A stretch of DNA of 64,000 nucleotides from Flavobacteriales bacterium (GTDB taxonomy: Bacteria; Bacteroidota; Bacteroidia; Flavobacteriales; Schleiferiaceae): contig CP051243.1 in the NCBI GenBank assembly GCA_017795025.1, positions 248,001 through 312,000 of the forward strand. Direction: 5' to 3'. The notes beneath the pieces are model-generated. The model saw only the letters and a list, made by a program, of their open reading frames with translations. It was not told where the DNA came from and did not search any database. The position numbers were made by a program, and so were the translations under genes. Positions 44,069 through 57,866 of this stretch are shown here, one piece after another (within the stretch, counting starts at the first letter, position 1; every line of letters starts with the position of its first letter).

Positions 44069-44794
44069 ATGAAACTAGATATCCTTGCCTTTGGGGCTCA
44101 CCCCGACGATGTAGAGTTGAGTTGCTCCGGGACTCTTGCGAAACAAAATGAATTAGGCTCCTCCTGTGGGGTGGTTGATTTAACCCAAGGGGAATTAGGT
44201 ACTCGCGGTACTGCCGAGATTCGATTGCAGGAAGCGCAAGAGGCAGGTAGAATCATGGGTTTAAAGGCTCGTCATAATTTGGGTTTTCGCGATGGGTTTT
44301 TCGAAAACGACGAAGCGCATCGTTTAAAGGTTATTGAGCAAATTCGTCGCTTTAAACCAGAGATTGTTATTGCCAATGCGCCAACCGATCGGCATCCCGA
44401 TCATGGACGTGCCTCCTTTTTATTGAAAGAAGCGAGCTGGCTTTCGGGACTCAAGAATATTAAAACAACTTGGGAAGGAGAGGAGCAAGAAGCCTGGAGG
44501 CCACAGTTGCTACTGTACTACATTCAATTTCAAAACTTGAAACCCGATTTCATTGTCGATATTGGTGATCATATTAAAACCAAGGTGAAGTCTATTGAAG
44601 CTTACCGCTCGCAGTTTTACGACCCCAATAGTAAGGAGCCCAAAACGGTAATTAGCTCTAAGAATTTTATGGATTCTGTTACTTACCGCGCCCAAGATAT
44701 GGGGCGCTTAATTGGGGCAGAATACGGAGAAGGTTTTATTACGGCTCAAGATCTTGGCCTTCAAGATTTAATGCAATTGAAGGGCGTACGCTAA
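44069..44794 (+). CDS. bshB1: Bacillithiol biosynthesis deacetylase BshB1
   Basis: Zinc-dependent enzyme that deacetylates GlcNAc-malate, the second step of bacillithiol synthesis. The 241-residue PIG-L/LmbE-family protein has zinc-binding AHPDD (His11, Asp13, Asp14), 'GELGTRGTAEIRLQEA', 'GFRDGFF', and 'TDRHPDHGRAS'. The BshA and BshC genes are not in the window. The 3' end overlaps the convergent glycosyltransferase gene by 56 bp, unusually long, though both frames look intact. Confidence 0.93.
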   Translation: MKLDILAFGAHPDDVELSCSGTLAKQNELGSSCGVVDLTQGELGTRGTAEIRLQEAQEAGRIMGLKARHNLGFRDGFFENDEAHRLKVIEQIRRFKPEIVIANAPTDRHPDHGRASFLLKEASWLSGLKNIKTTWEGEEQEAWRPQLLLYYIQFQNLKPDFIVDIGDHIKTKVKSIEAYRSQFYDPNSKEPKTVISSKNFMDSVTYRAQDMGRLIGAEYGEGFITAQDLGLQDLMQLKGVR

Positions 44795-45887
44795 GGTATA
44801 CTTGTATAAATTCTTGAGCAATCGCCTCAAAGGAATAACGCGAACGAGCTTGAATTGATAGCGCTGTTTGGTCGTAATGCGCATAGTTTGCTTTTAGCTG
44901 AAGAAAAGCTTGAGCCAACCCTGCTTCATCCTCAGAGTCGATTAAAATTCCCTGTTCCTTAGCAATGTATTCCGGGATTCCCCCAACCCGAGTGGCAATT
45001 ACCGGTCGGCCAATGCAAAGGGATTCCAAAAGAACCACTGGTTGGTTTTCAATAAAACTAAATAATACGAATGCTTCGCTCTCCGCAATTTCATGAGCCA
45101 CTTCCATGCGGCTCATAGCTGGTAAAATCCGGTAGTTCTCTGGCGGTATCGCCCGTTCTTTAATTATATCTTTTAGTTTATTGATATCGCCATCCCCTCC
45201 AATGCTGAGGTTCAATTGAGGGTCTTGTTTTAATGCCAAAGCAAATCCACGCAAGAGGCCTTCAATATTTTTTGTTTCCTGTTGCAGGGAGGAGATGTGG
45301 ACAAATCGAAAAAAGCCCTCCCGTCGGGTGGGGGCTTGGTATTGAAAGATATCGCTATCTACTACATTACCAATAACCTCAATGGTACTTTTAATGCCAA
45401 AATCCCTTAAAGAATCGGCGAGTTGTTGGGAGACCGGACAAACTACCTGGGCTCGGTTTAAAATTCGCTTGGCCATTTGTTGAGCCAAGCGACTCCATTC
45501 CGATCGTCTTTTGGCTTGATAGCCCGAATAATGTTCGGTGATGATATAGGGTAGATCTTTCAAAAACCCCTGAAAGGCAATTCCGGAGGGCCAACTAACG
45601 TGTAAATGCGCCATTTTAAAATGGTGCCCCAGCTGTTGTAGTCTTCGATAACCATCTTCCAGAGCTTTATAATGACTTTGAACCGGCCATTTTTTACGGT
45701 ATAAAACCTGAAGGTGTAAAAAAGGCTCTTCTTCAATGCGGATGTCATCCTCATGGTGTTCGAAGGCGGTTAACAGAACTACCGGCAGCTGTCGGTGGAT
45801 GGCCTTAAGATGCTCTTCCACAAAGTTTCCTAGGCGGGGGTCGGAAGGATTGGGATACCAACTGGCTATGTGTAATATCGGCAACAT
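44739..45887 (-). CDS. Family 4 glycosyltransferase
   Basis: The 382-residue protein has a GT-B fold. The N-terminal domain has 'LPILHIASWYPNPSDPRLGNFVEEHLKAI' and 'YIITEHYSGYQ'; the C-terminal GT1 domain has 'RFVHISSLQQETKNIEGLLRGFALAL', 'LSIGGDGD', and 'ENQPVVLLESLCIGRPVIATRVGGIPEYI' with the E-x7-E nucleotide-sugar motif. It presumably builds a surface polysaccharide. It is not BshA, which has a distinct N-terminus, despite the neighbouring bshB1. The last ~18 residues lie in the overlap with bshB1 and are probably non-conserved. Confidence 0.88.
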   Translation of the reverse strand: MLPILHIASWYPNPSDPRLGNFVEEHLKAIHRQLPVVLLTAFEHHEDDIRIEEEPFLHLQVLYRKKWPVQSHYKALEDGYRRLQQLGHHFKMAHLHVSWPSGIAFQGFLKDLPYIITEHYSGYQAKRRSEWSRLAQQMAKRILNRAQVVCPVSQQLADSLRDFGIKSTIEVIGNVVDSDIFQYQAPTRREGFFRFVHISSLQQETKNIEGLLRGFALALKQDPQLNLSIGGDGDINKLKDIIKERAIPPENYRILPAMSRMEVAHEIAESEAFVLFSFIENQPVVLLESLCIGRPVIATRVGGIPEYIAKEQGILIDSEDEAGLAQAFLQLKANYAHYDQTALSIQARSRYSFEAIAQEFIQVYLSVRPSIALNLEGQDLEP

Positions 45888-45909
45888 GGAGTAGAGCCTA
45901 CAAAGGAAT

Positions 45910-45942
45910 AAAAAAAGGCCATCTGTTTAACAGATGACCTTT
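45910..45942 (-). terminator. Terminator of tRNA-His
   Basis: On the minus strand AAGGTCATCTGT pairs with ACAGATGGCCTT around a three-base loop (one G-T pair), followed by a T run. It begins two bases after the tRNA 3' end. Confidence 0.88.
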
Positions 45943-45943
45943 G

Positions 45944-46018
45944 GGTGACTAATGGGGTTCGAACCCACGACCTCTGGAACCACAATCCAGCGCTCTAACC
46001 AACTGAGCTATAGTCACC
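45944..46018 (-). tRNA. tRNA-His (GTG)
   Basis: The minus strand folds as a full cloverleaf: acceptor GTGACTA/TAGTCAC, D arm with AGCTCAGTTGGTTAGAGC, anticodon arm CTGGA-TTGTGGT-TCCAG with anticodon GTG, and T arm with GTTCGAACC. An additional 5' G opposite C73 is the G-1:C73 pair unique to tRNA-His. The CCA end is not encoded. A terminator follows directly, so it is a single-gene unit. Confidence 0.97.
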
Positions 46019-46093
46019 ATAAATAGCTCCTTCGTTTAGGGTCGGCAAATTTAAACATTGCTAATTAATCGCAGGTAATAATTTTTGAAAAAA

Positions 46094-46555
46094 TTAAGGC
46101 CTTCCTTTTCGACGTCCTAACATTTCCATGAGGTGCCGATGAAACTCAAGCTCCAAGCGGTAAAAAGTGGCGGCCTTCCGGGAGCCAACTGCGGCTTCGA
46201 ATTTTTCAAAATAAGCGCGTTTTAGGGCCGCAATGTCTGCTTGGTTTTGCAATTCCTGTAAAGCAATGGCTCGCAATTCGGCATCTTCCAGTTCCTCCCA
46301 TTGTTCTTTAATTTCTTTACGGCTAAGGCCATCTTTTCGGCGCTGATGTATTTCTTTAATCTTTTTGGTGTATTCATTATAAACTGGCCAAAACTGCTGT
46401 GCTTCTTCGGGGCTCAGGTCCAGTTTATCGGTTATGAATTTCACTTTATAGGCTTCCACCTTTTCAAATTCGGCTCCCTCCATGGGTGGGCCGGGTTGTG
46501 CGCTTAAGACCACACTAAACAATAGAAGGCTAATGCTGAGGTAAAGACTTTTCAT
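46094..46555 (-). CDS. Spy/CpxP-like periplasmic protein
   Basis: The 153-residue product starts with a signal peptide (MKSLYLSISLLLFSVVLSAQ). The ATG at 46555 was chosen over an upstream one because the latter adds 27 residues that overlap the anti-sigma-like gene. The mature part is helical and charged: 'KVKFITDKLDLSPEEAQQFWPVYNEYTKKI', which resembles the LTxxQ-like repeats of Spy/CpxP proteins, then 'RRKDGLSRKEIKEQWEELEDAELRAIALQELQNQADIAALK'. Family members are called sensors of ECF sigma factors in Flavobacteriia. It is the last gene of a three-gene ECF operon. Confidence 0.8.
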   Translation of the reverse strand: MKSLYLSISLLLFSVVLSAQPGPPMEGAEFEKVEAYKVKFITDKLDLSPEEAQQFWPVYNEYTKKIKEIHQRRKDGLSRKEIKEQWEELEDAELRAIALQELQNQADIAALKRAYFEKFEAAVGSRKAATFYRLELEFHRHLMEMLGRRKGRP

Positions 46556-46556
46556 A

Positions 46557-46943
46557 TTAAAGATATTCGAGGGGTAAATATTGTTCATTAAGGTAACTGT
46601 CAATGGTTTCCAACTCCAGGGAGAAAGTGCTGTCAAGCGCTTCTTGGGGCAAATCTTGAATAAAGCTTTCGGGGTAGATGGCGTTCGGATCTTCCACTAA
46701 AAACTGAATAACTTCTTCTTGTTTTAACTCCGAGTAGCTTAAGCTAGCGGGGGGCTGAATGCTGGAAGAGGGGCGAAATAACCAAATGCCTATGATTACT
46801 AGGGCTGCCGCGACGTATGCATACCAAGGCCTAAAGGTTCTTTTGTTAGGATTTCTTGCCTCCGAACTTTGTGCAATCGCCTTGAGGCTTTCCTTCTTCT
46901 GCTCGAAGTAATGATCAGGTATATTAAATCCCTTGTTTTCCAT
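46557..46943 (-). CDS. Single-pass membrane protein, putative anti-sigma factor
   Basis: The 128-residue protein has an N-terminal cytoplasmic segment ('FNIPDHYFEQKKESLKAIAQ'), one transmembrane helix (about residues 40-57, 'AYVAAALVIIGIWLF') and an acidic outer domain. It follows the ECF sigma gene by 13 bp and precedes the Spy-like gene by one base. Position and topology suggest an anti-sigma factor. It lacks a recognisable zinc-binding ASD motif (no HxxxCxxC), so the assignment is from context. Confidence 0.7.
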   Translation of the reverse strand: MENKGFNIPDHYFEQKKESLKAIAQSSEARNPNKRTFRPWYAYVAAALVIIGIWLFRPSSSIQPPASLSYSELKQEEVIQFLVEDPNAIYPESFIQDLPQEALDSTFSLELETIDSYLNEQYLPLEYL

Positions 46944-46956
46944 AGCACTTTTAGGA

Positions 46957-47490
46957 TTACTTAAGTTCCTTAAGGTTTAATTGGTTCTTGATTTTTTCAT
47001 TGGCATGATGATAAGAGGCCTTTAGGGCACCCACCGAAGTGTCGAGAAGCGCGCTCATCTCCTTAAACGGCATCTCTTGGAAGTATTTTAACTTGAAAAC
47101 GGTTTGTTGTTTTTCGGGTAAGGTCGCAATGGCCTCTATAAGTAACTTTAGCGCTTCATCACCATTAAAATAGGGGTCCGCTTCTAGTTTAAAGTCCAAG
47201 GCACCCTCGTGTAATTGAAAGCGTCGTTCCTTTTTAAGCAAGCTTAAGGATTCGTTGGTGGCAATGCGATAGAGCCAGGTATAAAAAGCCGAGTCCCCTC
47301 TAAAATTAGGCAGGGCCATCCAGGCTTTAATAAAACTTTCTTGTAAGACATCATCACTCCAGTCGTGCCGGGCCAAAATGCTACGGATATGCCAATACAG
47401 ACGCTCGGTGTAGGCTTCTACCAAGCTATTGAATAGCTGCTGGTGGCTACCATTATGAAGTTGGATTTTCCAAATTTCCGGCTCTTGCAT
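46957..47490 (-). CDS. ECF-family RNA polymerase sigma factor
   Basis: The 177-residue protein has sigma region 2 (residues ~20-90, 'RLYWHIRSILARHDWSDDVLQESFIKAWMALPNFRGDSAFYTWLYRIATNESLSLLKKE' type pattern, with the DDVLQE and WLYRIATN elements) and region 4 (~115-170, 'LPEKQQTVFKLKYFQEMPFKEMSALL' type, ending 'GALKASYHHANEKIKNQL'). It heads an operon with a membrane protein and a Spy-like protein. It diverges from the first of five paralogous lipoprotein genes, 212 bp away. Whether it controls those genes is not shown; their -7 boxes look like housekeeping ones. Confidence 0.93.
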   Translation of the reverse strand: MQEPEIWKIQLHNGSHQQLFNSLVEAYTERLYWHIRSILARHDWSDDVLQESFIKAWMALPNFRGDSAFYTWLYRIATNESLSLLKKERRFQLHEGALDFKLEADPYFNGDEALKLLIEAIATLPEKQQTVFKLKYFQEMPFKEMSALLDTSVGALKASYHHANEKIKNQLNLKELK

Positions 47491-47661
47491 GCTTCAAAGT
47501 TCGTCCTTTTGAGGGGCCTTTTAAAGAAAGGTTTAATTCTAATCCTACATCGTTCTTTTTCAATGATAAAAAAACGCAGCGAGCTAAATAAGGTTAATGT
47601 AAAATGCTGAAAATTAGTGACGAGTAATTGAATTCACTTGAAATTATACTGGTAAAAATTC

Positions 47662-47688
47662 TATATTTGCCTTTAGTTTCTATTACCC
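47662..47688 (+). promoter_or_regulatory. Promoter and CTATTACCC leader of lipoprotein paralogue 1
   Basis: TATATTTG (47662-47669) matches TAnnTTTG. CTATTACCC (47680-47688) follows ten bases later and ends 14 bases before the ATG. The same nonamer follows the -7 box of paralogues 2, 3 and 4. Confidence 0.65.
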
Positions 47689-47702
47689 AAACACAAAAGA
47701 CA

Positions 47703-49055
47703 ATGAAAAAAATTACACTTTTTGCCGCTGCAGCCTTGTTTTTAGCAAGCTGTAACCGCGACACTACAGACGTAAGCACCACAGCTCCGGCCGAGAGCCG
47801 CACTAATGTGGTTCACTTCGAGCAATCTGATTTAGACGGCATGTTAATTCCAATGTCTCAATCCTTTAATGTTTCTTCTAAGGCTGCGGTGCAGTTAAAC
47901 TACACCTACCGCGCTTATGCAGAGCCTGTAACTATTGCTGGTCATACTATGGCTGCCTCAGCAATTTACGCTGAAGGCGATATGGTATTTGTAACCTGGC
48001 ATTCCGTTTCTGGTCCTGTTCCTGCGGGAGCTAGCACTTCATTAGCGGGTTCTATCTGTGCGTACAAACAAAGTGGAATCGGTCAGTACACCTTTACCGA
48101 TCGTATCGACTTTACTGACGCCGATTACCATGAGATTACCGCTCATACCAATTCGACCACTGGTCACATCGAGGTATTTGCTGTAGGTCAGCGTGCCATG
48201 ACAAGCGGTTATTTATTAGCCGGTCATAATGGTGCGGTTGTAACGCGTGTTGATTATGATTACATCAACGATGAGTTTTGGGAGCCAGGTGTAAAAGAAT
48301 TACCACTTCCAGGTGTTTCAGCTAACGACATTGAAGCCGGTGCTTCTCATTTATACATTGTTACTGGCGACGGACTAGGTGGTTCAGACGGTGGTGTATA
48401 CGAGATCGATCGTTCTTTAGCTCAAGTAAAAAAGGTTGACAATTCAATTAACGATGGTGTGGCGATTATTGCTGATGTTACTAATACCTCTGTGAGCGGA
48501 AGTAGCATGTATGTTTTAGATCGCGATGCTTCTGATAAATACAGTGTTTATCAATTCTCAACTACCTATGGTGGCGGTTCTAGCACTTCTTGGTCCAGCA
48601 CAATGAATTTTGTAAGTGATGGAACTATTTCTTCTTCTATCGACCGTGAGCGTAGCGATATGACTTGGGCACAATGGCGTGGTGGTGCATCTGATCCCCA
48701 GGATTCTTTGATCATCAGTGCTGGCTTAAACGGAATTTACCGTGCAGGTATTGGTGCTAATGGTATCACCAGTGTGAAAGATTTAGGTCCTTGTTTGTCT
48801 ACTACTTTTGATCCAGGTTTATCAGTTCTTTACTACGCTGACGGCGACGACGGTGTTTATGTATTAGCTATGGATAACTTTGAAGGCGGTGCGCTTATCA
48901 ACACTTATGATATTATTGGTCAGTTTGTACCTCCAACCGGTGGTGTTTTCCCAAGCGATTTCTTAGTAAAAGAAATGACCGTTTATCAAACGCGTAACAT
49001 TGCTTTAGCAACCGGTACTGCAGGAGTTTACTTCATGCAGCGCGACAAGAACTAA
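47703..49055 (+). CDS. Paralogous surface lipoprotein 1 of 5 (CNRD family)
   Basis: The 450-residue protein starts MKKITLFAAAALFLASCNRD, a lipoprotein signal with Cys17; NRD and nearby acidic residues may act as the export signal that puts it on the cell surface. The ATG at 47703 was chosen because it gives the signal peptide; an in-frame ATG 25 codons upstream does not. Motifs shared by the five paralogues include 'MVFVTWH', 'GIGQYTFTDRIDFTDADYHE', 'VTRVDYDYINDEFWEP', 'KELPLPG', 'VLDRD', 'LSVLYYADGDDGVYVLAM' and the C-terminal 'GVYFMQRDKN'. Repeating short Gly/Asp-rich strands suggest a beta-propeller. No known family was recognised. Confidence 0.85.
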   Translation: MKKITLFAAAALFLASCNRDTTDVSTTAPAESRTNVVHFEQSDLDGMLIPMSQSFNVSSKAAVQLNYTYRAYAEPVTIAGHTMAASAIYAEGDMVFVTWHSVSGPVPAGASTSLAGSICAYKQSGIGQYTFTDRIDFTDADYHEITAHTNSTTGHIEVFAVGQRAMTSGYLLAGHNGAVVTRVDYDYINDEFWEPGVKELPLPGVSANDIEAGASHLYIVTGDGLGGSDGGVYEIDRSLAQVKKVDNSINDGVAIIADVTNTSVSGSSMYVLDRDASDKYSVYQFSTTYGGGSSTSWSSTMNFVSDGTISSSIDRERSDMTWAQWRGGASDPQDSLIISAGLNGIYRAGIGANGITSVKDLGPCLSTTFDPGLSVLYYADGDDGVYVLAMDNFEGGALINTYDIIGQFVPPTGGVFPSDFLVKEMTVYQTRNIALATGTAGVYFMQRDKN

Positions 49056-49075
49056 GCTTCTTTGAACCTTATCTT

Positions 49076-49105
49076 AAAAGGCTCCTCCAACGAGGGGCCT
49101 TTTTT
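49076..49105 (+). terminator. Terminator of lipoprotein paralogue 1
   Basis: AAAAGGCTCCTC pairs with GAGGGGCCTTTT around a four-base loop, followed by a T run, 21 bases after the stop codon. Confidence 0.9.
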
Positions 49106-49116
49106 GTTGGTTGTTT

Positions 49117-49143
49117 TTCACCGACTTAAATCTGACGTTCGTA
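49117..49143 (+). promoter_or_regulatory. Putative 21-bp-phased regulator site upstream of paralogue 2
   Basis: TTCACC at 49117 and TTCGTA at 49138 are degenerate copies of the TTCGTC half-site found upstream of paralogues 3 and 5, with the same 21-bp period. The second half-site begins 80 bp before the -7 box. Confidence 0.45.
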
Positions 49144-49217
49144 ATAAAATTAAGGTGTAATTTCCTGTTTTTCAGGTGAAATTGAAAATGGGTGCTATTA
49201 ATATCGATATAAATAAA

Positions 49218-49238
49218 TATATTTGTAGCCTATTACCC
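49218..49238 (+). promoter_or_regulatory. Promoter and CTATTACCC leader of lipoprotein paralogue 2
   Basis: TATATTTG at 49218-49225 matches TAnnTTTG. CTATTACCC at 49230-49238 starts four bases after it and ends 14 bases before the ATG. No TTTG is seen at the expected -33 position, so an activator may be needed. Confidence 0.65.
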
Positions 49239-49252
49239 AATTCAATTTGACA

Positions 49253-50653
49253 ATGAAAAAAATTGCAACAATCTTAAGCGTAGCTCTGGTAGCTGTAGCT
49301 TGTAACCGTGACAACGACCCTGTAGCGGCCGCTCCGGTTGATGCTAAAAGTGCTGGAGTAGTACACTACAACCCAAGTGACCTTCCAGGAAGTGTTCAAA
49401 ACTTGAATGAGTCATTCAGTATTTCTGCCAAGGCAGCTGGATCTCAATTAAACTACACCTACCGCGGTTATGCCAAGCCGGTAGATAACGACGCTACTCC
49501 TTTCAATAGCGATGATTTATCTGCAGCAGCCATCTTCGCTGTGGATGATGTAGTGTTTGTATGCTGGCATACCAATGGCAATGCCGGTAGCCCATTAAAC
49601 AATACTAATGCCTACGGAGGTTCTATCGCTGCTTACAAATTAAGCGGTATTGGTCAGTATACCTTTATGGACCGCGTTGACTTCCCAGAGCATGACTTCT
49701 TTAAGATGTCGGCTCATAAGAATACCTCTACTGGCAACATCGAGGTTTTCGTGGCTGGTCAGCGTAATCCCGATAACTCAGGTTACCTATTAGCTAACCA
49801 CGCGGGTGCAACGGTTACTCGTATCGACTATGATTACATCAACGATGAGTTTTGGGAGCCTTCTTTCGAAGAATTGCCTTTACCAGGCGTTGCGGCTACC
49901 GATATTATCGCTTTGGCACAACACTACTTTGTTCTTACCGGAAATGGTGAAGGAACTAACAACGGTGGTATTTTCGAAGTAAACCGTTCTTTAGACTATG
50001 TTCTTAAAGCAGATCAAGGAAATGTTGAAGACGGTATTGCCTTAGCAACCGACCCTTCTAACCTTTCTACTTTCTCAGGAGACCTTTATGTTTTAGATCG
50101 CGCAGGTGCTACCTACCGTGTTCAAAAAGCAACTGGTGTTACTAGTGGTGCTACTTCTACTACTTTCTCGGCACTAAGCTCTCATAGTGATAACACTGCG
50201 GGTGGTTCTGCCATTTCGCCTATCAACTACGAGCGTGGTGATTTAGCTTTTGCTAAAGGCCGTTGGTCTGCAATCGGTTTAACTGATTCTCTTATCCTAG
50301 CGGTAGGATCTAATGGTATCTTCGAAGCAGGTAGTGGTGCCGGTGGTATTACTGCGGCAGTAAATAATGGTGCTTGTACCGGAATTGCTTACGATGCTGG
50401 ATTAGGCGTAATGTATTACTCTGCCGGTGAAGGTGGTATGTGGGTACTTGCCATGGGTGAGTACGCTGGAAATGCAGGTCCTCTAGTAAGCCTTTACGAT
50501 AACATCGGTCGCTTTGTTCCTCCTAGCTCAGTAGGTGGTGTGGCTGGCCCGATCCCATTTAATGTAAAAGACATTAGTGTGTATCAAACTCGTCATATTG
50601 CTTTAGCCTCTGGTGACGGTGGTGTATATTTCTTACAGCGCGACAAGAACTAG
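49253..50653 (+). CDS. Paralogous surface lipoprotein 2 of 5 (CNRD family)
   Basis: The 466-residue protein starts MKKIATILSVALVAVACNRD with lipid-bearing Cys17 followed by NRDNDP. It is by far closest to paralogue 3: the first ~55 codons are nearly identical at the DNA level. Shared motifs are 'LNYTYRGYAKPVDNDATPFN', 'VVFVCWHTNGN', 'GIGQYTFMDRVDFPEHDF', 'VTRIDYDYINDEFWEPSFEE', 'LDYVLKADQGNVEDGIAL', 'INYERGDL', and the end 'GDGGVYFLQRDKN'. It has its own promoter and terminator. Probably a surface beta-propeller; ligand unknown. Confidence 0.85.
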   Translation: MKKIATILSVALVAVACNRDNDPVAAAPVDAKSAGVVHYNPSDLPGSVQNLNESFSISAKAAGSQLNYTYRGYAKPVDNDATPFNSDDLSAAAIFAVDDVVFVCWHTNGNAGSPLNNTNAYGGSIAAYKLSGIGQYTFMDRVDFPEHDFFKMSAHKNTSTGNIEVFVAGQRNPDNSGYLLANHAGATVTRIDYDYINDEFWEPSFEELPLPGVAATDIIALAQHYFVLTGNGEGTNNGGIFEVNRSLDYVLKADQGNVEDGIALATDPSNLSTFSGDLYVLDRAGATYRVQKATGVTSGATSTTFSALSSHSDNTAGGSAISPINYERGDLAFAKGRWSAIGLTDSLILAVGSNGIFEAGSGAGGITAAVNNGACTGIAYDAGLGVMYYSAGEGGMWVLAMGEYAGNAGPLVSLYDNIGRFVPPSSVGGVAGPIPFNVKDISVYQTRHIALASGDGGVYFLQRDKN

Positions 50654-50673
50654 TATCTTGCCGAATAATATTG

Positions 50674-50704
50674 AAAGGCCCCTCATTTGAGGGGCCTTTT
50701 TTTT
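50674..50704 (+). terminator. Terminator of lipoprotein paralogue 2
   Basis: AAAGGCCCCTC pairs perfectly with GAGGGGCCTTT around ATTT, followed by more T residues, 20 bases after the stop codon. Confidence 0.93.
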
Positions 50705-50715
50705 ATTGTAGTTAT

Positions 50716-50742
50716 TTCGTCGTCAAAAATCGAGCATTCGTC
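50716..50742 (+). promoter_or_regulatory. Putative 21-bp-phased regulator site upstream of paralogue 3
   Basis: TTCGTC occurs at 50716 and again at 50737, two helical turns apart. The second copy starts 80 bp before the -7 box of paralogue 3. Half-sites with a 21-bp period are typical of LytTR-type regulators, but the regulator is not known. Confidence 0.5.
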
Positions 50743-50816
50743 ATTAATTGGAAAATTAAGTATCTGTTTATCAGTAGTGAAAGGTTTTTGGTTGTTTTAT
50801 TATTGATATAAATAAA

Positions 50817-50838
50817 TACATTTGTCTTTCTATTACCC
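50817..50838 (+). promoter_or_regulatory. Promoter and CTATTACCC leader of lipoprotein paralogue 3
   Basis: TACATTTG at 50817-50824 matches TAnnTTTG. CTATTACCC at 50830-50838 starts five bases after it and ends 15 bases before the ATG. Confidence 0.65.
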
Positions 50839-50853
50839 AATTTATATAGAACA

Positions 50854-52251
50854 ATGAAAAAAATTGCAACCATCTTAAGCGTAGCTCTAGTAGCTGTAGC
50901 TTGTAACCGTGACAACGACCCAGCTGCGGCCGCTCCGGTTGATGCTAAAAGTGCAGGAGTTGTACACTACAACCCAAGTGACCTTCCAGGAAGTGTTCAA
51001 AACTTGAATGAGTCTTTCGGTATTTCAGCGAAAGCCTCTGGCACTCAATTGAATTATACCTACCGCGGTTATGCCAAGCCGGTAGATAACGATGCCACTC
51101 CATTTAATAGTGATGATTTAGCAGCTGCTGCCATCTTTGCTGTTGATGATGTAGTATTCGTTTGCTGGCATACCAACGGAAATGGTGGTAGTACCTTAGG
51201 TAATACCAACCCTTACGGAGGTTCTGTGGCAGCTTATAAATTAAGTGGCATTGGTCAGTATACCTTTATGGATCGTGTGGATTTCCCAAATCACGATTTC
51301 TACAAGATGTCGGCTCACAAGAATACCTCTACTGGTAACATTGAGGTTTTCGTTGCTGGTCAGCGCGATCCCGATGAGTCAGGTTATTTATTAGCTAACC
51401 ACGCCGGTGCTACCGTTACTCGTATCGACTACGACTACATTAACGATGAGTTCTGGGAGCCTTCTTTCGAAGAATTGCCTTTACCCGGTATTGCTGCGAC
51501 TGATATTGTTGCTGCTGCTAGTCACTACTTTGTATTAACCGGAAACGGTGAGGGTACCAACAATGGTGGTTTATTTGAAGTGAACCGCTCTTTAGATTAC
51601 GTGCTTAAAGCGGATCAAGGTAATGTTGAAGATGGTCTTGCTCTTTGTGTAGACCCTACCAACCTTACACCTACTTCAGCTGATATTTACGTATTAGACC
51701 GTGCTTTAGGAACCTACCGCGTTCAAAAGGCCTCTGTTAGCTATGCAGGTGGTGCTTCTACTTCTTTCTCTACCTTAAGTGCTCATAGCGATAACACCGC
51801 TGGTGGAGCAGGTAGTGCTCCAATCAATTATGAGCGTGCCGATATGGAATTCGCTTTAGGTCGTTCTTCTTCAACCGATACCGATTCACTTATCCTTGCG
51901 ATGGGTGCTGGTGGTGTATTTGAAGCTGGCTTTGGCGCCGGAGGTATTTCTCGTGCCTTTGATAATGGTATAGTTACCGGAATCGCTTTCGATCCAGGTT
52001 TAGGAGTATTGTACTACTCATTAGGAGAAACTGGAATGTATGTAGCGGCTATGGGCGAGTATGCGAATAACGCAGGTCCACTAGTGAGTCTTTATGATAA
52101 CATCGGACGTTTTGTACCTCCTAGCTCTGTAGGTGGTGTAGCGGGTCCAATTCCATTTAACGTGAAGGATATTAGCGTATTCCAAACCCGTCATATTGCC
52201 TTAGCATCTGGCGACGGTGGTGTATACTTCTTGCAACGCGACAAGAACTAA
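50854..52251 (+). CDS. Paralogous surface lipoprotein 3 of 5 (CNRD family)
   Basis: The 465-residue protein starts MKKIATILSVALVAVACNRD, identical in its signal peptide to paralogue 2. Most blocks agree with paralogue 2, while the segment around residues 265-350 ('DLTPTSAD'-like to 'GAGGVFEAGFGAGG') is much more divergent, which marks the variable part of the fold. It ends 'GDGGVYFLQRDKN' like paralogues 1 and 2. Independent promoter and terminator. Surface lipoprotein by its signal; function unknown. Confidence 0.85.
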   Translation: MKKIATILSVALVAVACNRDNDPAAAAPVDAKSAGVVHYNPSDLPGSVQNLNESFGISAKASGTQLNYTYRGYAKPVDNDATPFNSDDLAAAAIFAVDDVVFVCWHTNGNGGSTLGNTNPYGGSVAAYKLSGIGQYTFMDRVDFPNHDFYKMSAHKNTSTGNIEVFVAGQRDPDESGYLLANHAGATVTRIDYDYINDEFWEPSFEELPLPGIAATDIVAAASHYFVLTGNGEGTNNGGLFEVNRSLDYVLKADQGNVEDGLALCVDPTNLTPTSADIYVLDRALGTYRVQKASVSYAGGASTSFSTLSAHSDNTAGGAGSAPINYERADMEFALGRSSSTDTDSLILAMGAGGVFEAGFGAGGISRAFDNGIVTGIAFDPGLGVLYYSLGETGMYVAAMGEYANNAGPLVSLYDNIGRFVPPSSVGGVAGPIPFNVKDISVFQTRHIALASGDGGVYFLQRDKN

Positions 52252-52273
52252 TCAAACCTTTGGATATAGTATT

Positions 52274-52303
52274 AATCCCTCACCATTGGTGGGGGATTTT
52301 TTT
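52274..52303 (+). terminator. Terminator of lipoprotein paralogue 3
   Basis: AATCCCTCACC pairs with GGTGGGGGATT (one mismatch-like G-T pair) around ATT, followed by T residues. Confidence 0.88.
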
Positions 52304-52353
52304 ATGATAGGGGATAAGAAAAGAGAAATTTGACTGTTTCTTTTAAGATTGCT

Positions 52354-52375
52354 TACTTTTGTAAAACTATTACCC
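52354..52375 (+). promoter_or_regulatory. Promoter and CTATTACCC leader of lipoprotein paralogue 4
   Basis: TACTTTTG at 52354-52361 matches TAnnTTTG. CTATTACCC at 52367-52375 starts five bases after it and ends only five bases before the ATG, so almost the whole leader is the motif. No phased TTCGTC pair is seen upstream. Confidence 0.65.
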
Positions 52376-52380
52376 CCAAT

Positions 52381-53781
52381 ATGTTACGATTCAACAAATT
52401 ATTCACTTTTGCGATTGCTGCTAGCCTGCTGCTAGCCTGTAATCGTGATTTACCCGAGGAAGACAATACAACTCCCACACCGGAACCCAATGATGTAGTG
52501 ATGAATGGCTACAGCTTTGGTGACCTTCAAGGACAACTTGTTAACCTTAACGACACCTTTGTTTTAAATAATAAGAATGCCAACGAGCAATTGGAATACC
52601 TCTACCGCGCTTATGCCGAGCCGGTAACTTTCCAAAACGGTGCTTCTACAACTACCTTATCAGCTACCGCTATCTATGCGATTAATGATATGGTATTTGT
52701 TACTTGGCATATTCCCAGTGCCACATATGGCGGTGCTATTTGCGCCTACAAGCAAAGTGGTATTGGCCGTTACACCTTTACCGATCGGGTAGATTTCCCC
52801 GAGGCCGATTACAACGAATTAGCGGCTAGTGAGAATAGTGGCGATGGTTACTATGAAATATTTATGGTAGGCCAGCGCGACCCCGATTTGTCGAATTACG
52901 TTTTGGCGGACCACAGTGGAGCGGTAGTCACCCGAATCGACTACGATTTTATTAATGATGAATTTTGGGAGCCTTCGGCCAAAGAATTACCCTTACCTGG
53001 CCATTCGGCTAATGACATTATTCCTGCTGCAGCTCACTATTATGTGCTTACGGGAGATGGTACAGGAGGCAGCGGAGGCGGACTCTACCAAATTGACCGC
53101 AGTATGTCGATGGTAGAGAAAGCAGACCGCGGAAGTATAGATGATGGTATTGCTTTAATTACCGATCCCACCACTTTAAGTGTTAATCCAGGGCTAAGTT
53201 CGGATGCCACCATTTATGCTTTAGATCGCAGTGGCTCAGAGTATCGCATTCATAGTGCCGCGGTTAGCTATGATTATGTAAGTGATCAAACCAATTTTAC
53301 GGTTTTAAGTCAACATAGTACCAACAACGGCGGACCTACCATTACCCCAATCGATGGCGAAAGGGGAGACCTTACCTGGGTTCAAGGTTATGGCGCCAGC
53401 AGTACCAAAACCGACTCCTTAATCATAGCGGTTGGATTAGAAGGAACTTTCGAAGCAGGCGCCACCGCTGGTGGAACCTTTAATTCGGCAGTGAACTTTG
53501 GTCCCTGTTTAGCTACTGAGTTTGATGCCGATTTAGGTGTATTGTATTATGCCGATGCTAATGATGGTGTTAAAGTAGTGGCATTAGGAGCCTATACCCA
53601 GGGCAATACCCTTAACGTTTACGACTTAATAGGGAACTTTGTACCCCCTACCGATAACAATGCCGGTACGGTATTACCAAGTACTTTTTACATCAAAGAG
53701 ATTTCGCTTTACCGTTCTCGAAATATCGCCTTGGCGACCGGTGATGCCGGAGTGTATTTCCTACAGCGGAATAAGCAATAA
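52381..53781 (+). CDS. Paralogous surface lipoprotein 4 of 5 (CNRD family)
   Basis: The 466-residue protein starts MLRFNKLFTFAIAASLLLAC (Cys20) followed by NRDLPEEDN, an acidic stretch fitting surface export. The ATG at 52381 was preferred over one 17 codons upstream, since that one lies before the -7 box. It keeps the family motifs: 'LEYLYRAYAEPVTF', 'MVFVTWHI', 'GIGRYTFTDRVDFPEADYNE', 'VTRIDYDFINDEFWEPSAKE', 'LYQIDRSMSMVEKAD', and 'GVYFLQRNKQ' at the end. It is clearly more distant from 2 and 3 than they are from each other. Confidence 0.85.
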   Translation: MLRFNKLFTFAIAASLLLACNRDLPEEDNTTPTPEPNDVVMNGYSFGDLQGQLVNLNDTFVLNNKNANEQLEYLYRAYAEPVTFQNGASTTTLSATAIYAINDMVFVTWHIPSATYGGAICAYKQSGIGRYTFTDRVDFPEADYNELAASENSGDGYYEIFMVGQRDPDLSNYVLADHSGAVVTRIDYDFINDEFWEPSAKELPLPGHSANDIIPAAAHYYVLTGDGTGGSGGGLYQIDRSMSMVEKADRGSIDDGIALITDPTTLSVNPGLSSDATIYALDRSGSEYRIHSAAVSYDYVSDQTNFTVLSQHSTNNGGPTITPIDGERGDLTWVQGYGASSTKTDSLIIAVGLEGTFEAGATAGGTFNSAVNFGPCLATEFDADLGVLYYADANDGVKVVALGAYTQGNTLNVYDLIGNFVPPTDNNAGTVLPSTFYIKEISLYRSRNIALATGDAGVYFLQRNKQ

Positions 53782-53800
53782 AGGTTCGAACAAACCAATA

Positions 53801-53830
53801 AAGGGGGCTCAAATGAGGCCCCTTTTTTTT
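53801..53830 (+). terminator. Terminator of lipoprotein paralogue 4
   Basis: AAGGGGGCTC pairs with GAGGCCCCTT around AAAT (one mismatch region), followed by a T run. Confidence 0.88.
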
Positions 53831-53840
53831 GCTCTTGTCA

Positions 53841-53867
53841 TTCGTCGAAGAAAAACGACCGTTCGTC
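53841..53867 (+). promoter_or_regulatory. Putative 21-bp-phased regulator site upstream of paralogue 5
   Basis: TTCGTC occurs at 53841 and at 53862, again 21 bp apart, with the shared pattern TTCGTCG-N4-AAAA-x-CGA between. The -7 box of paralogue 5 is not clear, so the distance cannot be fixed. Confidence 0.42.
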
Positions 53868-53996
53868 TATAGGTCGATTCTTTGGAACCACTTATCTAAA
53901 ATGACAAAGCTTACACCTTATTATAAAAGACTTTCGTGGTACAAATTAGGATAGCGGTATAGAAGGGGAAATCATACTAAATCCAAAACTTGTGCT

Positions 53997-55376
53997 ATGA
54001 AAAAGTTAGTTTATTTATTTGCAGCCGGCGCCTTATTGGCAAGCTGTAATCGCGATTTATCGGGATTGGAAGATCCATCTTTGGAGAATCGCGTAAGCAT
54101 TACTTCGGGCAGTGCCCTTAGTGGTGAATTAAAAACATTAGGCGAGTCCTTTACCCTAAGTGGTAAGGCCGGGCAAAACCTATCGTACACCTATCAAAAT
54201 TTTGCAGAGGCTCCTACTACCTTGGCTTATACCGAGGAATTACCAGGAGGAGTGGTTACCGGAACTTCACATTTAGCGCAAGCTACTTCGGTTACTGCAA
54301 ATGGTGAGATGGTATTTGTTACTTGGCACTTAGAGGATTCTCGCTATGGCGGATGTATCTCTGCCTATAAATTGGTAAATGGTTCTTACCAATATACAAG
54401 TCGTATCGACTTTGATGATACCGATTGGCATGAAGCGGAAGTAAACCGCAATACCGCAACCGGTAACTACGAAATTTTTGCTGTAGGTCAGCGCTCACCT
54501 TCTACCAGTGGTTATGTATTAGAAGGCCACCGTGGCGCTATCGTTGGTAAGATTTTATACAACTACATCACCGACGAATTTCAACCTGCCCATACCTATA
54601 AGGAACTTCCTTTACCTGGCTATGGTGCTAACTCAATCATTACTTCCGCTGGAAAGTATTACATCGTAACCGGTAACGGCATTGGTTCGGTAACCTGGGA
54701 TGCGCGCAGCGGCCTGTACGTTACCGACTACAACTTAACCAATGTGTCCGAAGCGATGACCATTACCGATGGTATCTTTATTGAAGCGGATCCATTTAAC
54801 AGTAGTCCTGCAAATGTGGATTACGCCCTGTTAGACCGTACCGCTTCGGATAAAATCCAGGTTCGTCGCAACATGAATACCTCGCAAACCGTATCCAATG
54901 GTATGTCTTATGTAATTGATTATATCAGCGGTTCAGGAATCCCATCCTTAGAGCGTGAGCGTGGCGGTATGGCCTTTGTTCCATACAGCTATGCCGGTAA
55001 TAGTGTAGCCAGTACTGAGTATGTATTAGCGCTTGGTCAAGAGGGATTATACAGTCAGAACGATGGTCACGTGAACAACCACGTACCTTACGCTTTGGCC
55101 GTTACCCACGATCCTTCTGCCCGCGTACTTTATGTAGCGGCTGGCGACCAGGGAATGCGTGTTGTAGCCGGACACGGTTACCACGGAGGAGCTTTAATTG
55201 ACGCCTTCGATCTCGTTGGAAACTTTGTACCTCCTACCAATGCCTTGATTAGCGGCTTTAACGTAAAAGACGTTTCGGTATACTTCTCTAACTACATTGC
55301 TATGGCAGTGGGTGGAACCGATGTAAGTGGTAGCGTAGCCCGTCGCGGTGGCGTGTACTTCGTACGTCGCAACTAA
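53997..55376 (+). CDS. Paralogous surface lipoprotein 5 of 5 (CNRD family, most diverged)
   Basis: The 459-residue protein starts MKKLVYLFAAGALLASCNRD (Cys17) and keeps the family plan in diluted form: 'MVFVTWHLEDSRYGGCISAY', 'YTSRIDFDDTDWHEAEVNRN', 'GYVLEGHRGAIVGKILYNYI', 'YKELPLPGYGANSI', 'LERERGGM', 'DLVGNFVPPTN' and 'VKDVSVYFSNYIAMAVGG'. Its end, 'GGVYFVRRN', replaces FLQRDKN. It has no CTATTACCC motif and no clear -7 box in the expected place, so it is probably regulated differently. Confidence 0.83.
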   Translation: MKKLVYLFAAGALLASCNRDLSGLEDPSLENRVSITSGSALSGELKTLGESFTLSGKAGQNLSYTYQNFAEAPTTLAYTEELPGGVVTGTSHLAQATSVTANGEMVFVTWHLEDSRYGGCISAYKLVNGSYQYTSRIDFDDTDWHEAEVNRNTATGNYEIFAVGQRSPSTSGYVLEGHRGAIVGKILYNYITDEFQPAHTYKELPLPGYGANSIITSAGKYYIVTGNGIGSVTWDARSGLYVTDYNLTNVSEAMTITDGIFIEADPFNSSPANVDYALLDRTASDKIQVRRNMNTSQTVSNGMSYVIDYISGSGIPSLERERGGMAFVPYSYAGNSVASTEYVLALGQEGLYSQNDGHVNNHVPYALAVTHDPSARVLYVAAGDQGMRVVAGHGYHGGALIDAFDLVGNFVPPTNALISGFNVKDVSVYFSNYIAMAVGGTDVSGSVARRGGVYFVRRN

Positions 55377-55440
55377 GATCCTAAAGCATAGCACACAATA
55401 TTTAAAACCTGAATTATTTTTAGATTTGGTTGTTTGTGAG

Positions 55441-55469
55441 CCCACAGCGTAATGCTGTGGGTTTTTTTT
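55441..55469 (+). terminator. Terminator of lipoprotein paralogue 5
   Basis: CCCACAGC pairs with GCTGTGGG around a five-base loop, followed by eight T residues, 64 bases after the stop codon. Confidence 0.9.
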
Positions 55470-55480
55470 GATCTATGAGT

Positions 55481-55540
55481 GGTGGTTTGGTGGACTGGTG
55501 GACTGGTGAAATGGTTGAATGGTGAAATGGTGGAGTGGGT
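55481..55540. repeat. Short GT-rich tandem tract
   Basis: TGGTGGAC and TGGTGAAATGG-like words are repeated over ~60 bp (TGGTGGACTGGTGGACTGG, then ATGGTTGAATGGTGAAATGG). The opposite strand would read as PFNH/HST-like peptides, a pattern seen in spurious ORFs of Bacteroidota. It is non-coding. Confidence 0.7.
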
Positions 55541-55547
55541 TTTGTGC

Positions 55548-55764
55548 GATTGCTTCAACGCAGAGCCTTGCTCGCCGTACAGAACTTTGGCAGGCGATGC
55601 CCTGCCGCCGGACGAGCCTTTGGCAGATGAGCCTTGCTCGTCGTACAAGACTTTGGCAGGCGATGCCTTACTCGTCGTACAAGACTTCGGCAGGCAAGAA
55701 CCCAGTGAATAAAGAGATTCGCGGAGGGTATTCCTTTTGAGTATAATATCAGCTTAAGGAGACG
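55548..55764. repeat. Dispersed intergenic repeat, long copy with internal duplications
   Basis: This begins GATTGCTTCAACGCAGAGCC and ends TTTTGAGTATAATATCAGC-TTAAGGAGACG. A ~34-bp inner unit (TGCTCGTCGTACAAGACTTT followed by GGCAGGCGATGCC) is repeated near 55568, 55636 and 55669. A second, shorter copy with the same ends lies at 56214-56319. No gene is visible. Confidence 0.7.
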
Positions 55765-55884
55765 TCCCCTTCAAGGGTTTACGTGCTGTAATACAGGGTA
55801 GTTGCAATTGATTTTTCTTAAGGAGTTTTATTAGTTAGCTTTCCACCTCATTTTTCGAATCTAGGAAGTTAACCCTACCCCGTC

Positions 55885-55925
55885 TTCCGACCTACGTCGG
55901 AATCCACCCCTTCGTCGCACGAAGG
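55885..55925. repeat. Paired palindromes in the intergenic region
   Basis: TTCCGAC/GTCGGAA (55885-55902) and CCTTCGT/ACGAAGG (55909-55925) form two adjacent hairpins separated by TCCACC. Paired hairpins of this style recur between genes in Bacteroidota. Confidence 0.6.
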
Positions 55926-56046
55926 GAATGTTCCTCCGGAGTAAATGTTTGTTTTATTGGTTAACTGGTTTTTGGATGATTCACGATAGCTGCACTCGAA
56001 CTCCAAAGGTTTTCATTTCAATCCAAAATTCTGTGAGGAGGTATTT

Positions 56047-56168
56047 GGCCTAGGAAGGGTAGCCGAAAAAATGAAAGTAGACGACTAGCTGAGTTGGGTT
56101 GCGACGCTAGGAGCTCGCCCACCGAAGCAGGAGACTAGAAACACTTTTGAGGCGAACCTTCCAAGCCT
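56047..56168. repeat. Structured intergenic element, copy 2
   Basis: This ~122-bp element starts GGCCTAGGAAGGG and ends GGCGAACCTTCCAAGCCT, so its ends pair (GGAAGG with CCTTCC). The end sequences and an inner ACCGAA-x-GC-x-GGA match copy 1 at 15811-15917; the middle parts differ. Confidence 0.55.
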
Positions 56169-56213
56169 CGAATACTTTAAATCCCATTTAGGTGGATTTC
56201 TTGGATTGCTTCA

Positions 56214-56319
56214 ACGCGGAGACGCAGAGCCTTTCTCGTCGCACAAGGCGATGGCAGGGGAGTTTAAAGAGTTTCGTGGAGAGTGCTCCTTTTGAGTACA
56301 AACTCAGCTTAAGGAGACA
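56214..56319. repeat. Dispersed intergenic repeat, short copy
   Basis: It begins GATTGCTTCAACGCGGAGAC and ends TTTTGAGTACAAACTCAGCT-TAAGGAGACA, matching the ends of the 55548-55764 element but with a single inner unit. Rest of the 55377-56486 gap holds only the other repeats listed here and no gene. Confidence 0.65.
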
Positions 56320-56434
56320 TAGGATTATCCTTTGAAAGTAGAATGGTAGTACTAAAGAATGATATAGTCTCACAGGGAGCACCGCGACCGATCTCACGTC
56401 TCAAATCTCAAATCTCACGTCTCACCTCTCCCCC

Positions 56435-56463
56435 AAAAAAAAAAAGCCCCAAACAGGGGCTTT
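56435..56463 (-). terminator. Terminator of the YaiO-type gene
   Basis: On the minus strand AAAGCCCC pairs with GGGGCTTT around a short loop and is followed by a long T run, 24 bases after the stop codon. Confidence 0.9.
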
Positions 56464-56486
56464 AATAATAACTATGCGCTTCAATC

Positions 56487-57779
56487 TTATATCCGGTACC
56501 CAAGGGTTAAACCCAAGGAGATGATGCCTAAGAAATCGTCTTGACGACCAAAACTTTCCTGCCGTGTAAAAATTAAGTCTACCCGTGTGTAAAGCTTTGG
56601 ATTGGCTAATTTTTGGTAACTCACACCAATGTACTGGTTGGAGAGCTGCACGTTATCATCGGCCGATAATTGGTTAGCCACGGATAAAATACGTTCGTCG
56701 GGTACCATACCAAAGCCTGCGGTAAATTGCAGGAAGTCGCCTTTTCCGCTGTAAAACTTGCGGTAAAGGAAGTTATAAGTCGTTCCCCAGCCATTAGCAT
56801 CTACAATTACAAAAGGGCGGAAAGAAGCGTACTCGTTCCCCCAATAATAGCCTACAGAGCCCGTATACATTACAACTTGGTTAAGTAGGAAGTCCAAGTA
56901 TCGGAAACCTAGGGAGCCTTCAAATTTGCTGCTGCCCAACATGGTGTAATATTCCATGCCAATACGGAAGCTCGGGAAGATTTCGGAAGGAGAGTAGCCG
57001 ATATTTACATAACCGTAAGAATTGCGACTAATACGCGGGTAAATATCAATTTCTCCCTGCACTCCAAAGCTGGTGAAATCTTGATTACGATCGCCGTAAT
57101 TTATTCTGCCTATAATAGCACCGATTTTAGTTTGCCGGCCATATTGTAAAAAGCCAAAATACCAAGGTCGATAGGTTTTGGTAAAGTAATCAACCCTTCC
57201 GCCTATAGCAATACCATCAACAATTAGCTGATTGAGCAAAAAGGTTTTTAATTGCTTTAATTCATTGTTTTCAGGATACTTCTCGAGGGCTTCATCTACC
57301 GTTTTAAAGGCTTCTCGAGGGTCGTTCGCCGAAGTGAGCGCCTGGGCCTTGGTAACGTAGAAATACTCGTTATTATCCGGAAAGCGCTTGATGCCATCAT
57401 CGCAATACAAAAGGCAGAGCGCAGTCTGCTTCGCAAAACGTTCGTTCTGTACTCTTAATTCGTAAATCGCATAAGCATTGGTATCCTCTACCAACAGGTT
57501 GCGAATGAGGTTCCGGGCATTTTCGTACTTCTCATCCCAAACGAAGGTTCGGGCTTTAAACAAGCGATATTGGTAATTCCCTGGATCCTCAATAAGAAGG
57601 AGGTCTAAAACCTTACGCGAAGTTTGGAAGTCACCATCATAGGCCAATTGTCGGGCTTGCGCGAAAGCCGAGTCGGGATCTGCAGAGATCATTACTACCG
57701 GAGCTTGGGTGGTGTCTTCTTGGGCGAAGAGACTCCCAAAACTGAGCGCTAGTGTTAAAATGAATAAAATCCTTTTCAT
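56487..57779 (-). CDS. YaiO-family outer-membrane beta-barrel protein with TPR domain
   Basis: The 430-residue protein starts with a signal peptide (MKRILFILTLALSFGSLFAQ). Residues ~30-190 are TPR-like helices ('AFAQARQLAYDGDFQTSRKVLDLLL', 'YENARNLIRNLLVEDTNAYAIYEL', 'DPREAFKTVDEALEKYPENNELKQL'). The C-terminal ~240 residues alternate in the manner of a YaiO-type beta-barrel ('GFLQYGRQTKIGAIIGRINYGDRN', 'GSLGFRYLDFLLNQVVMYTGSVGYYWG') and end LTLGYRI. YaiO-type proteins are often tied to envelope polysaccharide export. A monocistronic gene. Confidence 0.85.
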   Translation of the reverse strand: MKRILFILTLALSFGSLFAQEDTTQAPVVMISADPDSAFAQARQLAYDGDFQTSRKVLDLLLIEDPGNYQYRLFKARTFVWDEKYENARNLIRNLLVEDTNAYAIYELRVQNERFAKQTALCLLYCDDGIKRFPDNNEYFYVTKAQALTSANDPREAFKTVDEALEKYPENNELKQLKTFLLNQLIVDGIAIGGRVDYFTKTYRPWYFGFLQYGRQTKIGAIIGRINYGDRNQDFTSFGVQGEIDIYPRISRNSYGYVNIGYSPSEIFPSFRIGMEYYTMLGSSKFEGSLGFRYLDFLLNQVVMYTGSVGYYWGNEYASFRPFVIVDANGWGTTYNFLYRKFYSGKGDFLQFTAGFGMVPDERILSVANQLSADDNVQLSNQYIGVSYQKLANPKLYTRVDLIFTRQESFGRQDDFLGIISLGLTLGYRI

Positions 57780-57866
57780 GGTTTCGACATTGAAAGCCTA
57801 AAAGTACTGGCCTTCAGTAAAAAACACTTTAGCTTTCGCTGTAAGGCCGAAATATTTCGCTGAACG

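Follow-up and report, generated by a model that had tools for sequence, protein, structure and literature searches.

A tandem array of five paralogous lipoproteins with a predicted beta-propeller fold in a Flavobacteriales genome

Organization of the array

The window analysed here is a 64,000-nt stretch, positions 248001-312000 of the 3.44-Mb single-contig genome (G000) of a Flavobacteriales bacterium. Five open reading frames (ORFs) lie head to tail on its + strand at window positions 47703-55376 and encode paralogous lipoproteins of 450-466 aa. The tandem array of five lipoproteins carrying CNRD, described in a first-pass annotation of this DNA, was confirmed by the ORFs, by the pairwise identities and by the presence of CNRD in all five proteins. 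The genes are listed below with lineages A to D of the tree described later.

47703..49055, + strand, g1, lineage A lipoprotein, predicted propeller, 450 aa (ORF, tree, AlphaFold2 model)
49253..50653, + strand, g2, lineage B lipoprotein, predicted propeller, 466 aa (ORF, tree)
50854..52251, + strand, g3, second copy of lineage B, 465 aa (ORF, tree)
52381..53781, + strand, g4, lineage C lipoprotein, predicted propeller, 466 aa (ORF, tree)
53997..55376, + strand, g5, lineage D lipoprotein, predicted propeller, 459 aa (promoter element and leader not found upstream)

The mechanical ORF of g4 opens at TTG 52330; the ATG at 52381 was taken as the start instead, because the promoter element TAnnTTTG at 52354 falls within the TTG extension. 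Pairwise identity was 35-53% between lineages and 84-85% between g2 and g3. CNRD, ELPLPG and GVYF each occurred in all five proteins, so that the motif list of the annotation holds as a description of the family. It does not hold verbatim for the remaining motifs, since FVTWH was found in three of the five (FVCWH in g2 and g3), GIGQYTFxDRxDF in three, DYDYINDEFWEP in three and VKDxSVY in two.

The hydrophobic N terminus of each of the five proteins closes in [SA]CNRD, as in bacterial lipoproteins. The LPAM_1 model reached 18.8 of 20 bits in g1, just below its cut-off, and was absent from the matches listed for g2-g5. The residues after CNRD in g1 to g5 were T, N, N, L and L, leaving a single acid after R. 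Other lipoprotein starts in the genome were CEKYLD and CEKMLE in two SusD-like proteins and CEEDDD in a lipoprotein at 43131. According to the excerpts of PMC5080379, the surface-export signal of Capnocytophaga is C-X-K-(D/E)2; KDD works whereas KD alone is insufficient, and C. canimorsus requires two acids. The surface location assumed in the annotation goes beyond the evidence; CNRD has one acid against the two of that rule, and the signal of this genus may differ from it.

Predicted fold and family status

AlphaFold2 was run on a 16-sequence alignment, and models were made for g1 and g5. The g1 model had a mean predicted local distance difference test score (pLDDT) of 81.0 and a predicted template modelling score (pTM) of 0.85; the values for g5 were 79.8 and 0.84. 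In the g1 model two N-terminal strands were followed by 28 strands, counted manually as seven blades of four. Foldseek returned 560 PDB chains at E <= 0.001, with mostly WD40 propellers leading the list, and the best VIA-align matches were Z 31.0 (2.8 A over 293 residues) for g1 and Z 29.6 (2.4 A over 285 residues) for g5. Both proteins are probably WD40-like propellers, seven-bladed in g1 by the manual count, and the beta-propeller proposed from the sequence is supported by both models and by the fold matches.

At the sequence level, hmmscan of the five proteins gave no Pfam or NCBIfam model at its cut-off, and the PDB sequence search gave nothing better than E 0.3. The best E value in a PHROGs search was 0.095. 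A viral fold library gave 65 matches at E <= 0.001, and the best 50 of them, to giant-virus, phage and many unnamed proteins, held nothing specific (query TM-score <=0.47). Among the open-access papers searched, none dealt with this family. The earlier view that the family is undescribed is so far supported by the lack of Pfam and NCBIfam matches at cut-off and of a significant PDB sequence match. Matches of the window proteins below cut-off (DELLA, FATC, DUF7250 and TipJ-like, among others) were not used, nor was the LIC11966 family lipoprotein match of the homologue at L054 (E 0.0014, 18.6 of 200 bits).

Distribution and orthology

Genome searches used a five-row profile, and at most four candidates per genome were scored in the phylum and order draws. 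Close loci came from Flavobacteriales and Bacteroidetes metagenome-assembled genomes (MAGs). In the taxonomic family of the host the profile matched 7 of 88 genomes: that of the host, five more from its genus, and G022 from a different genus. When the order was sampled evenly, the same seven matched out of 395 genomes. In the phylum draw 6 of 395 genomes matched including its own, four of them in family f25, which we read as Balneolaceae-like, and one in another family. Within f25, 6 of 92 genomes matched with one gene per genome. The search of Flavobacteriales for the family and its copy number, suggested with the annotation, thus found four tandem genes in each of four relatives (G014, G015, G017 and G018) and one homologue in G022; in G019 pieces of at least three array genes lay on short contigs. 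No match was obtained in G016, a genome of the same genus (seven genomes included) that is 89% complete and whose contig with the YaiO gene, the neighbour of the array elsewhere, ends about 0.4 kb past that gene. A loss of the array in G016 was considered and set aside on these grounds, the absence not being established.

One genome per species was compared. In a tree of 26 rows, from which four f25 rows were omitted as too distant, g1, g2 with g3, g4 and g5 each grouped with a single gene from each of G014, G015 and G017, whose genes follow the same order. Support was 100/99 for A, 100/100 for C and 100/100 for D, and 88/98 for B, or 100/97 with a Balneolaceae sequence inside. The g2/g3 duplication was private to this genome among those compared. 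Genes 1 and 4 of G018 fell near D, and its other two genes next to A-B-C, a placement that carried long-branch warnings. Each lineage was conserved at 67-79% between species.

The single homologue of G022 is 411 aa long. On its left lie three divergent genes of 155, 135 and 151 aa, matched to the left flank of the array by position, size and start sequence, and its right flank is that of the array, a YaiO barrel and then a 317-aa gene. The YaiO gene adjoins the array in G000, G014, G015, G017, G018 and G019. The presence in G022 of only one homologue, flanked by matching neighbours, makes it probable that A to D arose within the genus by amplification of one ancestral gene at this site. Loss of copies in G022 is the alternative history.

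The Balneolaceae sequence in the tree is a 500-aa lineage-B-like member, 43-44% identical to g2 and g3, on a 3.5-kb contig of a MAG (L011:133-3297, JAGYJQ010000040.1). The 512-aa ORF beside it is presumably a transposase. Gene transfer or a misbinned contig would account for this member.

Divergence and selection

Nei-Gojobori ratios of nonsynonymous to synonymous divergence (dN/dS) were 0.012-0.195 in 11 of 13 pairs; in the other two, both with g4, silent sites were saturated. Between g2 and g3 the proportion of silent differences (pS) was 0.18-0.31 at the 5' end versus 0.34-0.77 elsewhere, and amino-acid identity dropped to 0.57-0.70 at codons 271-390. Outside g2/g3, no 30-codon window of a paralogue pair within a genome exceeded 0.79 nucleotide identity.

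Block identities were calculated from three orthologues per lineage (window, G017 and G015, with g2 representing B). In the blocks covering 241-330 (starts 241, 271 and 301) identity between orthologues was 0.40-0.56 in A and 0.46-0.53 in B, against 0.57-0.87 in A and 0.64-0.91 in B for the remaining blocks. This sector looks like slow divergence of one propeller side, or relaxed constraint, and not like fast variation. The annotation had invoked variation in antigen or ligand. Fast antigenic variation is disfavoured because dN/dS is low and orthology is one-to-one and stable; slow diversification of ligands is compatible with the sector in A and B.

Conservation was scored over 16 diverse rows (four window genes, G017_1, four of G018, the Balneolaceae locus, G022, the distant paralogue described below and four of f25). 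The residues present in all 16 included H100, G116, F137, G162, G177 and P201, and R164, Y170, H175, A178 and E199 were present in 15. We read these residues as a core of blades 1-3 whose role is either functional or structural.

Transcription signals

An intrinsic terminator, a hairpin with a T run, followed each of the five genes at about 90 nt from the stop codon at most, with energies of -16.1 to -21.7 kcal/mol. Among 502 non-overlapping 110-nt + strand windows taken elsewhere in the window as control, one reached -16 and three reached -8 kcal/mol. Terminator-like sites numbered 14 versus 8.3 (standard deviation 2.9) in shuffles, and a generic sigma-70 scan showed no excess (15 sites versus 17.2 in shuffles). 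The Bacteroidota-type promoter element TAnnTTTG followed by the leader CTATTACCC was located upstream of g1-g4, 27-41 nt before the start codon; neither was found in the gap upstream of g5. The following sites come from the terminator scan and from motif searches.

47662..47669, + strand, g1 promoter element TAnnTTTG (start of the first-pass interval)
47680..47688, + strand, g1 leader CTATTACCC
49076..49103, + strand, g1 terminator
49218..49225, + strand, g2 promoter element TAnnTTTG
49230..49238, + strand, g2 leader CTATTACCC
50673..50700, + strand, g2 terminator
50817..50824, + strand, g3 promoter element TAnnTTTG
50830..50838, + strand, g3 leader CTATTACCC
52274..52298, + strand, g3 terminator
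52354..52361, + strand, g4 promoter element TAnnTTTG
52367..52375, + strand, g4 leader CTATTACCC
53800..53826, + strand, g4 terminator
55438..55464, + strand, g5 terminator

The + strand of the 64 kb holds 33 copies of TAnnTTTG, so that about 0.5 match would be expected in the five gaps, which total 953 nt. CTATTACCC has four copies in the window, every one an array leader. The combination TTTG-N3-14-CTATTACCC had five matches in the genome, four of them in the array, and its reversed control had two. A genome-wide regulon marked by CTATTACCC was rejected, the fifth match lying inside the coding sequence of a 240-aa ORF. At a distant paralogue near 2.33 Mb and its orthologues, CTATTACCC stands at the start of the coding sequence, where it is read as S-I-T-P or T-I-T-P, and a leader role there is doubtful for this reason.

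The sister species retain the leader in lineages A, B and C, but an exact TAnnTTTG is missing from the C genes of G014 and G015. The terminator scan with loops of at most 8 nt had no match after gene 3 of G014 and G015, where a hairpin with a longer loop and a T run is visible by eye. In G018 the four genes are spaced by 27, 46 and 18 nt, with a single TAnnTTTG/CTATTACCC set before gene 1. No internal terminators were detected in the G018 gaps, the 18-nt gap being too short for the scan, and its four genes form an operon-like run.

The strong terminator of its own claimed for each gene was thus recovered in all five cases. As for the independent transcription units, promoter, leader and terminator support them in g1-g4, and g5 has the preceding terminator only. 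Because terminators and promoter elements are present, separate transcripts are likely for g1-g4 in this genome. Differential expression of the array genes is plausible from their own promoters and the different upstream region of g5.

Two direct repeats in the gaps, picked after inspection and suggested by the AlgR box as LytTR sites, are given as a lead only.

50716..50742, + strand, TTCGTC-N15-TTCGTC direct repeat upstream of g3, possible LytTR site
53841..53867, + strand, TTCGTC-N15-TTCGTC direct repeat upstream of g5, possible LytTR site

The exact TTCGTC pairs were found only in these two array copies; the degenerate repeat had 12 genome matches (10 distinct, owing to redundant contig ends). 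Three matches at one mismatch or fewer lay in the window, a count reached in 8 of 100 shuffles. The degenerate repeat was kept 152-156 nt upstream of the D gene in five species. The 21-bp spacing scored highest in g2, g3, g5, G017_4 and G019 and tied with 17 bp in G014_4 and G015_4; for the B genes of G014, G015 and G017 it was not best, or merely tied. LytTR genes occupied 12 rows in the genome (11 distinct). LytTR repeats are mostly 12 bp apart in the excerpts of PMC6193735.

Neighbouring genes and other loci

Divergent from the array, at window 46094-47490, are genes for an extracytoplasmic function (ECF) sigma factor and for proteins of 128 and 180 aa, with positional counterparts in L009, L049 and L051. 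The 128-aa protein, a possible anti-sigma factor, matched nothing in Pfam. Tandem repeats follow directly after the array at window 55480-55695, as an 8/16-bp array resembling TGGTGGAC and a 33-bp unit in 3.9 copies. Stretches of TGGTGGATTGG near 2.334 Mb (L062) resemble them.

The distant paralogue is a 677-680-aa ORF (L057:4787-6820; L092:6060-8102) with a propeller part and an unmatched C-terminal stretch of about 250 residues. A TonB-dependent receptor gene (L057:2224-4659, about 2326223-2328658 in G000) lies between a 542-aa gene and this paralogue and is not found there in G017, by insertion or loss. A TonB transporter as partner was dropped as a candidate, since the paralogue at 2.33 Mb follows the receptor while its G017 orthologue follows a different gene; in G019 the contig starts just upstream of the orthologue.

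In two f25 genomes (L054:6247-11930 and L055:5831-11973) a family-2 glycosyltransferase, a TackOD1 response regulator, a small protein, a possible HlyD-like protein and, last, a propeller lipoprotein are encoded in a run, possibly an exopolysaccharide system.

The same matches recurred in G000 at a constant offset of 3,383,583 bases (10496/3394079; 51768/3435351; LytTR rows 51813/3435396). The contig therefore seems redundant at its ends over at least 41 kb, and the actual size of the circular genome is probably near 3.38 Mb.

Discussion

Paralogy, gene order, orthology, terminators and four promoter/leader sets are read from the sequence, and the fold is predicted. We tentatively favour the view that the array encodes ligand- or partner-binding outer-membrane propellers, which would capture ligands at the outer membrane as XusB or BtuG do, but without a linked TonB transporter. 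The products would be an ordered, locally amplified set of outer-membrane lipoproteins in which the N-terminal lipid tethers each beta-propeller. An ancestral single gene would have given rise to A, B, C and D by duplication within the genus, each lineage then held under purifying selection, and B would have been duplicated again in this genome to give g2 and g3. A conserved site in blades 1-3 (H100, R164, H175 and E199) may be where each propeller binds its ligand or partner, and the paralogues may differ in ligand or contact through the divergent sector around blades 4-5 (241-330). With separate promoters, the A, B and C genes would be under one leader-linked control and D (g5) would be controlled differently, possibly by a LytTR regulator.

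Several observations weigh against the binding-propeller interpretation. CNRD does not follow the Capnocytophaga export rule in the excerpts of PMC5080379, a rule from another genus that may not be that of the host. No ORF longer than 505 aa was found beside the array (window 44000-60000, L009 and L049) or beside the G022 homologue (L051), in a check by ORF length that set aside ORFs running off the ends and covered part of the neighbours; therefore no TonB transporter is likely to be linked. The divergent sector was not seen in D (0.75-0.89) and was weak in C (0.68-0.72), confidence in the g1 model drops in that sector (pLDDT 59-70 in parts of 291-330), and the divergence in A and B could reflect relaxed constraint. 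The conserved polar residues may be structural. Silent sites were near saturation in most between-species pairs, and dN/dS was not computable in 2 of 13. On the regulatory side, neither TATTACCC alone (151 genome matches versus 169 for its reversed control) nor the degenerate 21-bp repeat (12 versus 11) was enriched genome-wide.

A somewhat unlikely alternative is that the paralogues would serve different clients. It gains from the CNRD start, which falls outside the Capnocytophaga surface-export rule (PMC5080379, excerpts), from the g5 model, which also matches the periplasmic YncE (Z 28.8), and from the envelope-like character of the kept neighbours, the array being flanked by the ECF sigma factor with small divergent genes and, at its other end, by the YaiO outer-membrane barrel. 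However, these neighbours are on the opposite strand and are not co-transcribed with the array, the proteins are confined to few lineages (7 of 88 genomes in the taxonomic family of the host), unlike a core assembly factor, and the Capnocytophaga rule may not be the export signal of this genus.

We consider it unlikely that the proteins are glycan-linked propellers whose target is a polysaccharide, either foreign or made by the cell itself, with a role in attachment or exopolysaccharide handling. Homologues in two f25 genomes (L054 and L055) do lie directly behind the family-2 glycosyltransferase and response regulator, but the f25 loci L052, L053 and L095 have other neighbours, and the HlyD-like gene further up is below cut-off in L055 and unscanned in L054. 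Next to the array itself, the sole polysaccharide synthesis gene is that of a group-1 glycosyltransferase at 44739-45887, beyond the ECF genes.

It is very unlikely that the array serves dosage only, with redundant copies of one function for high expression. The 84-85% identity of g2 and g3 and the leader common to g1-g4 would fit, but A to D are 35-53% identical and yet each is conserved at 67-79% between species, which suggests distinct roles. Least credible is a surface array that diversifies fast, as phage receptor, antigen or means of escape from grazers, and whose copies recombine. Although the genes are tandem paralogues with a divergent sector and the low silent divergence at the 5' end of g2/g3 is compatible with gene conversion, order and one-to-one orthology are stable in the window, G014, G015 and G017, dN/dS is low, and beyond g2/g3 no 30-codon window of a paralogue pair within a genome exceeds 0.79 nucleotide identity.

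Returning to ligand- or partner-binding propellers, a bolder version, which we regard as distinctly unlikely as it stands, is a modular binding panel with a shared core, in which each propeller would capture a different ligand by its blade 4-5 edge and would be switched separately. The ligands might be, for example, related siderophores, cobamides or glycans, and the captured cargo would feed transporters encoded elsewhere. A, B and C would be switched through their common leader, D and part of B through a site of the LytTR type. If true, such a panel would add a capture device to this branch of Flavobacteriales. An ordered set of four to five genes is kept in one genus, with a single-copy relative at the same site in another genus, which makes the array a clean case for how lipoprotein gene arrays form, gain separate promoters and divide work.

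Comparison with known systems

XusB and BtuG of Bacteroides are surface lipoproteins, and BtuG is a propeller. The array proteins resemble them in the lipid anchor and in the predicted beta-propeller fold. According to the excerpts of PMC13142918, XusB, a lipoprotein with a seven-bladed propeller, binds siderophores and is found next to a TonB transporter; BtuG, also paired with a TonB transporter, is an analogous partner in the uptake of B12. Unlike them, the array has no likely linked TonB transporter, its CNRD start departs from the Capnocytophaga export rule, which may not apply to this genus, and it holds four to five tandem paralogues. DUF4374, the family of XusB, and related families were absent from hmmscan results up to E 10. 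Entries of XusB or BtuG were not among the best 50 fold matches listed, which says nothing against a resemblance.

The likeness to WD40 propellers (RACK1/Asc1 and beta'-COP) is one of fold, with Z 29.6-31.0 over the best 50 rows for g1. Identity in those rows was 5-13%, so that only the fold is shared, and the array proteins are secreted lipoproteins; up to E 10 no WD40 Pfam model matched the five proteins. YncE-type propellers were matched in fold by g5 and had no sequence match to the window proteins, and an NCBIfam YncE match of the G022 homologue (L051; E 0.019, below cut-off) was not used. LVIVD-repeat propellers (PF08309) gave weak matches in four of eight relatives scanned (E 0.022-0.14, all below the curated cut-off) and none for the five window proteins.

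The single-copy lipoproteins of f25 matched the N-terminal half of the array proteins in a profile comparison (hhalign probability 99.3, E 1.3e-20, 220 columns, five-row f25 set). They differ in an unaligned C-terminal half, in having one gene per genome and in their neighbours. The array proteins are a new, unnamed family of a known kind of protein.

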